From Parcubacteria group bacterium GW2011_GWA2_42_14 (lineage in GTDB: Bacteria > Patescibacteriota > Minisyncoccia > Sungbacterales > GWA2-42-14): a DNA stretch of 48,003 nucleotides. This document shows positions 35,535-45,555 of this stretch, piece by piece. Below the pieces are notes generated by a model, which worked only from the letters and a program-made list of their open reading frames with translations, had not been told where the DNA came from and did no database searches. Position numbers and translations under genes: made by a program. Each line of letters begins with the position of its first letter. Position 1 is the stretch's first letter. The DNA lies in contig LCCV01000003.1 in the NCBI GenBank assembly GCA_000998135.1, positions 70,392 through 118,394 of the forward strand. The letters are read 5' to 3'.

Positions 35535-35768
35535 TAACAGGACTTACGTCATCATTTAAAATAGCATAATTATTAAACTTTTTGTTACTTTCTGCTTTGA
35601 CTTGGGGGCGACTCTAATATTCTAATCCACTCGAATGACTCTAATGACCTTTAAGTTTATTTGAGGCATTAGGGTGGAATTCGTATATTAGAGTCGCTAC
35701 AAAGTCATTATTTAAGGCTAAAATTTTGGCTTAAATAAAAAGTTTTTTACGAGTGTATAACCTTGTTA
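35535..35768. mobile_element. MITE-like element, full copy, between kinase and regulator genes
   Basis: A 234-bp copy in the opposite orientation to 26357-26611. The left end reads TAACAGGACTTACGT; the right end, inverted, TAACAAGGTTATAC. The inner arms match: TTTGACTTGGGGGCGACTC corresponds to the complement of GAGTCGCCCCCCAAGTCGAA in the other copy. It starts 6 bp from the regulator ATG and ends 2 bp from the kinase stop. Confidence 0.8.
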
Positions 35769-35769
35769 T

Positions 35770-37068
35770 TTAAGAGGGGATGGTTACTACAAATATTGTA
35801 CCATTTCCCGGTTTGGAAAAGAATTGTACGGTTCCTCCCTGATTTTCAATAATATTCTTGGCTGTGGATAGGCCGAGCCCGGAACCGTCCGGCTGAAGTA
35901 ATTTGGCGTTTTTTCCCCTGAAGAAACGCGTGAATATATGGCTTGCGTCCTCCGGCGTAATTCCAATGCCGGCATCTTCAACCCGGAAATATACGAGATT
36001 GGTTTCGCGCCAAAGGGAAATATTTACTGTTTGGTTCGGCGAATAACGAATGGCGTTGTCAACGATGTTTTTTAAGGACGTTTTTAATTTTTCCCGTTCG
36101 GCTTTGACAAAAATTTTTTGGTCTGGTTGGGACAAGGTGACGGCAACCATTTTTTGTCGGGCAAAGTTATCGAGTTCCCTGGTAATTTCTTCCAGGAGCG
36201 ATAAAGCGTCGAACTGCTCTTTTTTATTTTTTAAAACATCGGGGGGGGGCGTGTGTTTTGCTTCAAGCATCTGGTCCACAATTTTTACCAGACGATTTAT
36301 ACTAAAAAGGCTTTTTTCAATCGCGGAGCGCGCTACCGTATCAATGCCGGGCTGCTGCAGCGCGGCTTCAAGACCCCAGCGAATTTCCGTAAGGGGAGTG
36401 CGAAGCTGGTGAGAAGTTGTAGTAATGAATTCAAGTTTTTCCCGGTCTATCTCCAAAAGTTTGCCGTATTGTTGGCGTGTTTCTTCTGTTTCGTGTTCCG
36501 CCCTTAGCACCTCCCGCATGAGTTGTAAAATATACGATGAATAAATTCCGACTAGCATCACGATTAAGAAAAGAGTAAGGGGGGTTGCGGTAAGATAGAA
36601 ATTTTTTATGATAACCGCGGTTAAAAGAATATTGCCGAGCGTGACGGTTACCAATGTTCCTGGTTCAAATGTTGTTGTACGGATTGCGGTATGCGGCGCA
36701 AAAAGAAAATATAGAGTAGAGCTTATAATTATAAACAGGATTATTATTCCGCCCATGATCCAGGGAGCGGTTATTTGCGGAATTTTTTCAATTTGAAAAA
36801 TTTGCCAGGTTACTATCAGAAGGATGGCAATGAATAAGGGCAACCTGAATTTGCCGGTTCTTTTTAGGACGGAGGCGGTTTTATTTACCCCGTTAGAACG
36901 TTGCTGACTACTGCTCGCCTCGCTGAAGTTACGGCGAAGCGGGTCGGCGGTAACGGTAGAGATAGCCGATGGGAGTGTAATGCTTTCGTCGGCCGATCGC
37001 GGAACACCCGTTCTAACGGGGTTTACAGATTTAACTTTTTCGTTTAGTTGGTTATTTTTTTCAGTCAT
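35770..37068 (-). CDS. Membrane sensor histidine kinase
   Basis: A 432-residue kinase. Four membrane helices lie between about residues 72 and 185 (LFIAILLIVTWQIF; IMGGIIILFIIISSTLYFLF; LFLIVMLVGIYSSYILQLM). There is no large external sensor domain, so it may sense within the membrane. The H box is TTSHQLRTPLTEIRW; N box KNIVDNAIRYSP; G1 DAGIGITPED; F box FTRFFRG; G2 GSGLGLSTAK. It should phosphorylate the downstream receiver. Residues about 16-61 (NPVRTGVPRSADE ... SSSQQRSNGVN) are encoded by an inverted-repeat element (36887-37022) and are probably unstructured. A 90-bp tandem repeat lies just upstream of the start. Confidence 0.94.
   Translation of the reverse strand: MTEKNNQLNEKVKSVNPVRTGVPRSADESITLPSAISTVTADPLRRNFSEASSSQQRSNGVNKTASVLKRTGKFRLPLFIAILLIVTWQIFQIEKIPQITAPWIMGGIIILFIIISSTLYFLFAPHTAIRTTTFEPGTLVTVTLGNILLTAVIIKNFYLTATPLTLFLIVMLVGIYSSYILQLMREVLRAEHETEETRQQYGKLLEIDREKLEFITTTSHQLRTPLTEIRWGLEAALQQPGIDTVARSAIEKSLFSINRLVKIVDQMLEAKHTPPPDVLKNKKEQFDALSLLEEITRELDNFARQKMVAVTLSQPDQKIFVKAEREKLKTSLKNIVDNAIRYSPNQTVNISLWRETNLVYFRVEDAGIGITPEDASHIFTRFFRGKNAKLLQPDGSGLGLSTAKNIIENQGGTVQFFSKPGNGTIFVVTIPS
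36887..37022. mobile_element. ACCCCGTTAGAA-type inverted-repeat element inside kinase gene
   Basis: Ends are ACCCCGTTAGAACG (36887-36900) and its perfect complement (37009-37022). The 136-bp segment reads through without stop in the kinase frame. A related element with ends ACCCCGTTA/TAACGGGGT lies at 45442-45555. It also contains a GCTGAAGTTACGGCGA palindrome like that in ftsK. Confidence 0.8.
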
Positions 37069-37100
37069 GGAGATTATTATTTTAATTACCTTGAATTACG

Positions 37101-37310
37101 AAAAAGCGTTTTCGGTAACCCTTCGACTCGCGCAGTTCGCTCAGGGAGTATCATTTTATTGCCTGAGCCGAGTCGAAGGCACACATTCAGAAAAAGCGTT
37201 TTCGGTAACCTCTTCGACTCGTGTAGTTCGCTCAGGGAGTATCATTTTATTGCCTGAGCCGAGTCGAAGGCACACATTCAGAAAAAGCGTTTTCGGTAAC
37301 CTCTTCGACT
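37101..37310. repeat. Tandem repeat, about 90-bp unit, 2.3 copies
   Basis: Units start with AAAAAGCGTTTTCGGTAAC at 37101, 37191 and 37282. Each full unit carries a hairpin: CTTCGACTCG...GCTCAGG against CCTGAGCCGAGTCGAAG. The hairpin resembles the one at 41108-41180. Confidence 0.9.
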
Positions 37311-37443
37311 CCGTTGTTATTATGTTATTATAATAACTTATTTCGGAGATTTTTTAAATAGTTGTCAGAGTACTGCAAGTTTTTAATTTTTTTATCGTAG
37401 ATACCCACGGGCAAGTTCGTGGAACTTCGCGGTAATATTAGAG

Positions 37444-41083: not shown

Positions 41084-41107
41084 AAGTTATTTCAAAAATG
41101 ATTATTG

Positions 41108-41180
41108 CCTGAGCTTGTCGAAGGCGTACCCTCAAAAAATTTAGGAAAATTCGCAAAATTTATTCTTCGACAAGCTCAGG
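41108..41180. repeat. Hairpin element between delta and alpha genes
   Basis: CCTGAGCTTGTCGAAG (41108-41123) is perfectly complementary to CTTCGACAAGCTCAGG (41165-41180). Outer AAGTTATTTCAAAAA/TTTTTGAGATAGCTT arms extend the pairing. This CCTGAGC-TGTCGAAG word is common in interspersed repeats. Confidence 0.85.
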
Positions 41181-41230
41181 AAGTAAATTTTGCTGGTTTT
41201 TGAGATAGCTTCTAGTGAGTTTGTCTAATT

Positions 41231-45169: not shown

Positions 45170-45442
45170 ATGGAACAATCTACCACTACAACACAAATTC
45201 TTGATGTCGTTATCCGTGATCGCTCGGGCATTCTTTTCGAGGGAGAGGCGGATTCCGTTTCTTCTTATAACGATACCGGTGATTTTGATGTTATGCCGTT
45301 TCATGCGAATTTCATTTCCATTATTAAAAATAATATAGTTTTGCGCCTTAAGGGCGGTAGGGTTCAAACCATTCCGCTAAAGACAGGCATTATTAAAGTT
45401 AGCCAGAATAAAGTTGAAGTATATTTGGGGATAGTACATTAA
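45170..45442 (+). CDS. atpC: F-type ATP synthase epsilon subunit, N-terminal domain only
   Basis: A 90-residue protein equal to the beta-sandwich domain of epsilon: LDVVIRDRSGILFEGEADSV, then DFDVMPFHANFISIIK and LKTGIIKVSQNKVEVYLGIV. The C-terminal helical hairpin that inhibits hydrolysis in many bacteria is missing. ATG 45170 (MEQSTTTT) is preferred over an in-frame start at 45146. Its TAA stop overlaps the first base of an inverted-repeat element. Confidence 0.9.
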   Translation: MEQSTTTTQILDVVIRDRSGILFEGEADSVSSYNDTGDFDVMPFHANFISIIKNNIVLRLKGGRVQTIPLKTGIIKVSQNKVEVYLGIVH

Positions 45443-45555
45443 CCCCGTTAGAAATCCGGCACTACGCCAATAACAGCATAATGGTGTGAAGCGAAGCGGC
45501 TCCGCCTTGCACCTTCAGGGATAAAATTATGACTTATTTAGATTTTTAACGGGGT
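45442..45555. mobile_element. ACCCCGTTAGAA-type inverted-repeat element after atpC
   Basis: Ends ACCCCGTTA (45442-45450) and TAACGGGGT (45547-45555). The inner sequence differs from the copy at 36887-37022 apart from AAGCGAAGCGG-like words. It has no gene and begins on the last base of the atpC stop. Confidence 0.75.

Follow-up and report, generated by a model that had tools for sequence, protein, structure and literature searches.

Palindrome-Ended, Probably Mobile Elements Accepted in Frame in a Histidine Kinase and Other Bacterial Proteins, with a Candidate tRNA-Carrying Form

Introduction

Rickettsia palindromic elements (RPEs) are palindromic repeats of ~150 bp that lie in frame within unrelated protein-coding genes and are read as extra residues (PMC10969869). 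Prokaryotic MITEs are short, dispersed, multicopy sequences that lack a transposase gene and carry terminal inverted repeats and a target duplication (PMC10969869). In-frame mobile palindromes have hitherto been viewed as a peculiarity of Rickettsia. tRNA-targeting integrative elements, for their part, attack tRNA genes yet leave the cell a working tRNA. Here we describe a separate, multi-phylum family of palindrome-ended elements, one of which lies within a histidine kinase gene in a 48,003-nucleotide stretch (the window) of the genome of Parcubacteria group bacterium GW2011_GWA2_42_14.

Results

The host gene, located at 35770–37068 on the minus strand, encodes a histidine kinase with HisKA and HATPase_c domains and carries near its 5′ end a 134-bp palindrome-ended element of the GAACG subfamily (36888–37021, no strand assigned), whose termini, CCCCGTTAGAACG at 36888–36900 and CGTTCTAACGGGG at 37009–37021, are as in other copies. 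The element is bracketed by a TTTA target duplication, likewise without strand, with its left copy at 36884–36887 and its right copy at 37022–37025, the latter followed by C and matching a TTNAY consensus. A preliminary description of this DNA had given a 136-bp segment with perfect 14-bp ends; the element is real but measures 134 bp, since the 14th pair (A/T) is part of the flanking TTTA duplication, one base at each end. Element and 4-bp duplication together amount to 138 bp, or 46 codons, which are open in the kinase frame and have no counterpart in five orthologues, bearing out the ~45 extra in-frame residues proposed earlier. The insert translates as NPVRTGVPRSADESITLPSAISTVTADPLRRNFSEASSSQQRSNGV, a peptide with the ends PVRT...RSNGV, and is placed in the N-terminal tail, ahead of the first membrane helix. 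Besides the window's element, the GAACG subfamily includes several 134-bp copies in the relative G015, in frame within Obg, MurD and a FAD-dependent oxidoreductase-like protein.

The relative previously placed after atpC at 45442–45555 was confirmed at 45443–45554 (112 bp, no strand assigned); it belongs to a ~110-bp GAARTCCGGC subfamily, has ends as in other copies, directly adjoins the atpC stop codon and has imperfect flanks, TTAA/TAAA. Further repeats near the kinase, at 37098–37330, 41102–41186 and 35598–35757, belong to families separate from the CCCCGTTAG family described here; they are inverted repeats of the form CTTCGACTCG..GCTCAGG that accompany a GAAAAAGCGTTTTCGGTAACC unit and, at 41102, TTATTGCCTGAGCTTGTCGAAG.

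The 11-mer CCCCGTTAGAA occurs in 39 copies in the 1.24-Mb genome versus 0 for the reversed control, indicating that the element ends are not due to chance, and is present in 41 of 55 relatives. Scanning species genomes for end pairs gave at least 113 stretches, and among the matches listed were many Patescibacteria together with Deltaproteobacteria/Syntrophaceae (Desulfobacterota), Omnitrophota, Nitrospirota and Planctomycetota. The survey for end pairs proposed in the preliminary description thus yielded many more elements, including in-frame ones in unrelated genes. Viral carriage was rejected, with 0 elements on viral contigs in one IMG/VR scan. Elements range in size from 29 bp to ~230 bp with perfect or near-perfect ends, and those of merely 29–40 bp also have duplications. 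The family displays several traits of MITEs, being short, dispersed and multicopy, with terminal inverted repeats, a fixed 4-bp duplication and no transposase gene.

Counts in Deltaproteobacteria reach 191 end motifs in one genome (12-mer count), and are about 190 in G113 and 130 in G116. At several sites in G113, 40-bp elements each have their own TTTA duplication, so that very short units appear mobile. At one locus (L061, 1070–1115 and 2340–2435), variants of 35–37 bp with the ends CCCCGTTAAAT..ATTTAACGGGG are inserted and tandemly stacked, the site being the GFT stretch of signal sequences like those of type IV pilins (..LTGFTPLNSCEANLTGFTLLEM). At six loci (L067, L080, L094, L251, L261 and L273) the terminal base pair of the element is altered jointly on both sides, giving the ends TCCCGTTAG..CTAACGGGA, and some of these elements enclose other, nested ones.

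The ends are CCCCGTTAG terminal inverted repeats made up of a fixed 8-bp core and a variable complementary stretch. Past the CCCCGTTA core, the stem sequence differs among elements and stays complementary within each: in pairs selected by the 8-bp core alone, stem positions 11, 12 and 13 are complementary in 95, 86 and 85% of cases, respectively, versus 74, 43 and 53% after shuffling. This covariation of the ends indicates that the hairpin is kept.

About half of the 290 elements collected overall (124 + 166) have identical 4-bp flanks, namely 61 of 124, against a shuffled mean of 9.0 (maximum 19), and 99 of 166 in a separate multi-phylum set. Reverse-complementary flanks were found once in the same 124 elements, and the repeat is not extended as longer matches. 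The commonest duplications are TTTA, TTGA, TTCA and their complements, followed by CTTG, CATA and CTCG, and are summarised as YTNR, with exceptions that include CATA/TATG. One cluster has nearly identical ends and flanks that read TTCA, CATA or TCCA; because the flanking 4-mer varies among near-identical copies, the repeat constitutes duplicated target DNA and not element sequence. Given the terminal inverted repeats, the 4-bp duplication, the many dispersed relatives and the insert-free orthologues, the kinase segment is very probably a MITE-like mobile element, non-autonomous and with ends that form a hairpin.

In several subfamilies and clusters, the elements nearly always face the asymmetric TTNAY target the same way. 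Such a bias is uncommon among transposons with symmetric ends and would allow for a mechanism specific to one strand. The hairpin might be inserted single-stranded by a Y1 (HUH) transposase of the IS200/IS605 or RAYT type, the 4-bp repeats reflecting a recognised tetranucleotide instead of a staggered cut. Consistent with such insertion are the fixed orientation, the TTNAY target, which presumably resembles those of IS200/IS605, the whole-element hairpins and the units of 29–40 bp, which, with their duplications, are hard to fit to a classical DDE synapse. However, at the Pfam cut-off Y1_Tnp is absent from the element-rich genomes G015, G040 and G048, and the flanking 4-mer varies among copies with near-identical ends. 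The IS200/IS605-RAYT class makes, to our knowledge, no target duplication, whereas variable 4-bp duplications are present here. We regard insertion by a Y1 enzyme as unlikely on balance. Guide-determined flanks as in IS200/IS605 were likewise rejected, the flanking 4-mers being variable and the ends near-constant.

Other candidate enzymes and parents for the MITE-like element were also considered. Most of the element-bearing genomes tried lack DDE_Tnp_1, the end motif is absent from G009, a genome with nine DDE_Tnp_1 matches, and the distribution of rve is patchy. Y1, DDE_Tnp_1 and rve were set aside as mobilising families, their distribution in the genomes tried not tracking the elements, and none of the Y1_Tnp, DDE_Tnp_1 and rve loci is bounded by the family's ends. 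No autonomous copy came to light: in four rich genomes the unpaired ends, and at all loci the long pairs, proved to be short elements, and parent candidates of 1.5–2.7 kb at seven loci (L061, L181, L222, L254, L257, L269 and L342) resolved into short-element pairs or unrelated ends.

Acceptance inside protein genes was assessed on 265 distinct elements, of which 32 lie within an open frame, defined as one with at least 450 bp beyond the element. Length plus 4 is divisible by 3 in 27 of these 32, versus 78 of the 233 outside (Fisher p = 7e-8), a statistic that is conditional on a spanning open frame and hence speaks of retention, not of where insertion occurs. Read through its ends, the element is open in two phases (PVR..SNGV and TPLE..LTG) and hits TAG in the third. 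By NCBIfam name, the hosts include AtpD, LysRS, Obg, TrpRS, a RluA-family synthase, MurD, AtpG and RNase HII, and the profile match is broken at the element in TrpS, AtpG, Obg, MurD and RNase HII. These elements share with RPEs the in-frame placement of palindromic repeats in protein-coding genes.

A subset of the hairpins that share the core hold an entire tRNA gene between their arms. The pattern TTCA-CCCCGTTA...TAACGGGG-C, which makes no demand for a tRNA, was searched class-wide and matched 32 of 384 genomes; of the 30 loci that this returned, at least 22 have a tRNA in the hairpin. The 29 tRNA hairpins collected carry tRNAs for Ala (8), Val (7), Pro (6), Arg (3), Thr (3), Ile (1) and Met (1). 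The sequence outside the hairpin corresponds to the halves of another, decayed tRNA, which best match a same-isotype inner tRNA in 26 of 29 cases (0 of 5000 random re-pairings reach the observed score). The break falls mostly at inner-tRNA coordinates 32–36, in the anticodon loop, in some cases in the D-loop and once near 46–50, and the flanks are TTCA...CAAG-like, without duplication.

Nesting up to about five deep was observed in family f37, in which a single syntenic locus holds tRNA-Val(CAC) genes one inside another several times over. In L443, four scored tRNA-Val 5′ halves and a further decayed one lie leftward, each before a CCCCGTTA end, and in L440 successive tRNA-Val 3′ halves lie to the right; 5′ halves on the left and 3′ halves on the right is the arrangement throughout the f37 nests, with one exception each in L440 and L362. 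Nests of tRNA-Val(CAC) surround one intact tRNA in L443 (1–2678), L440 (2100–2700), L442 and L445, with 5′ halves ending in ..TTCA directly before CCCCGTTA and 3′ halves beginning with CA.G directly after TAACGGGG.

All 46 tRNA matches in the window's genome were examined (the assembly is 95% complete, so further copies may exist). Arg(TCT), Val(CAC) and Ala(TGC) were detected once each, every one inside such a hairpin; the two Ile(GAT) copies detected share one locus, where each lies in a CCCC..GGGG hairpin. At L038 (1470–1890) and on the minus strand of L041 in this genome, the split outer tRNA runs into a shared structured segment (CGATTTAG..GCCGTTAAAAATCG.CCGGGA) that replaces the T-arm and has no Rfam match; L038 also has a second tRNA-Ile within another hairpin (CCCCGGTATGAAAAATTTTGG...).

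We give about even odds to the proposal that some of the CCCCGTTA hairpins form a mobile element of a new class, namely a tRNA-replacing cassette with a complete tRNA gene between its arms. Such a cassette would target a resident tRNA gene of matching identity and enter its anticodon loop (or D-loop), destroying the old tRNA and supplying a new one, which would in turn be the next target, giving rise to Russian-doll tRNA genes. Selection would account for the same-isotype rule, because insertion of a cassette into a single-copy tRNA gene would be survivable only where the cargo replaces the tRNA lost. The shared ends suggest that one enzyme may serve both forms.

An element removed from transcripts as an RNA-level intron, with the outer tRNA as the working product, would agree with the strong covarying stem, with the anticodon-loop position in many of the tRNA cases and with the joined flanks, which still score and fold as a tRNA in 15 of 29 cases. 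This is very improbable, since the protein-coding copies keep frame, which would be needless under splicing, and the joined flanks lack the right anticodon, the Ala cases not regaining an Ala anticodon and reading as Val, while 14 of the 29 outer tRNAs go unrecognised; on the latter two grounds splicing of the outer tRNA was rejected. No Rfam intron or ribozyme was matched either: above curated cut-offs, the window and the loci scanned returned tRNAs and a SAM riboswitch only.

The MITE-like reading of the kinase segment is further supported by its orthologues, the comparison suggested at the outset. A whole-kinase search of 113 relatives gave best matches in G002, G015, G022, G003 and others; seven of the eight strongest non-self matches begin at residue 64 or later and one at residue 43. 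The insert is missing from all five orthologues compared (L299–L302 and L305), in which ~27–33 residues precede the first membrane helix versus ~73 (~27 + 46) here, and conservation of the extra residues as a domain, which would have spoken against an inserted element, was not seen among the kinases compared. That the 46 residues are the true ancestral N-terminus, with an incidental inverted repeat, agrees with a frame open throughout and a location before TM1, where orthologues align poorly, but has next to no likelihood given the short orthologue tails, strong matches that almost all begin past the insert, and identical ends at dozens of unrelated loci; an ancestral kinase domain was rejected on the insert-free orthologues.

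Discussion

We propose that a putative transposase-like enzyme, supplied in trans, would cut at YTNR with a 4-bp stagger and then join the element ends at the cut. A host gene would survive where the combined length of element and duplication is divisible by three and the element falls in one of the two open phases, and selection would retain in genes only frame-preserving copies. The N-terminal tail of the kinase would thereby have been lengthened by 46 residues that are probably dispensable.

Essential enzymes, among them ATP synthase subunits, aminoacyl-tRNA synthetases and Obg, gain segments from this family, which would make it possible to test whether core proteins are regularly extended with peptide segments by selfish DNA, mainly in Patescibacteria with small genomes. 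If the cassette proposal is true, the tRNA form would be an insertion-based means of swapping essential tRNA genes, and would account for those genomes in which the sole copy of a tRNA sits inside the wreck of an older one.

The 4-bp duplication, the spread across phyla and the tRNA-carrying form go beyond the preliminary description, which knew of no account of the family. None was found in the literature searched, which lay mostly outside subscription papers, and both forms appear undescribed: we found no paper there that dealt with patescibacterial MITEs or with one tRNA nested inside another, and the titles of text matches to the end motif suggest primers or unrelated sequence.

Unlike tRNA-targeting integrative elements, the tRNA hairpins are ~100 bp long, have no integrase and hold a complete tRNA inside, interrupt the anticodon loop or D-loop, and nest repeatedly. 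IStrons and self-splicing introns likewise render gene insertions harmless, acting via a ribozyme (PMC4227781), whereas the present family does so via frame preservation, with no ribozyme found. REP/BIME sequences with their RAYTs are also small, dispersed, hairpin-forming palindromes; the family differs in lacking the GTAG/CGTC tag (PMC3733652), in its 4-bp duplications and in the absence of Y1 from three rich genomes. It is like MITEs in its short length, dispersed copies, terminal inverted repeats, target duplication and lack of a transposase gene, and unlike them in having no parent insertion sequence among the genomes and families tried, a fixed 8-bp core with a co-varying inner stem, the same ends across several phyla, and acceptance within essential genes.

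The likeness to RPEs drawn in the preliminary description stands as an analogy of behaviour, with no kinship demonstrated. Compared by description, the two have in-frame palindromic insertion in common, and in this sense the family appears to work like RPEs. It differs from them in its phyla, its end sequence (CCCCGTTAG), its YTNR 4-bp duplications, its sizes from 29 to >200 bp and its tRNA-carrying form, and, whereas each RPE family reportedly specifies a conserved peptide, just the two end peptides recur in the elements described here.
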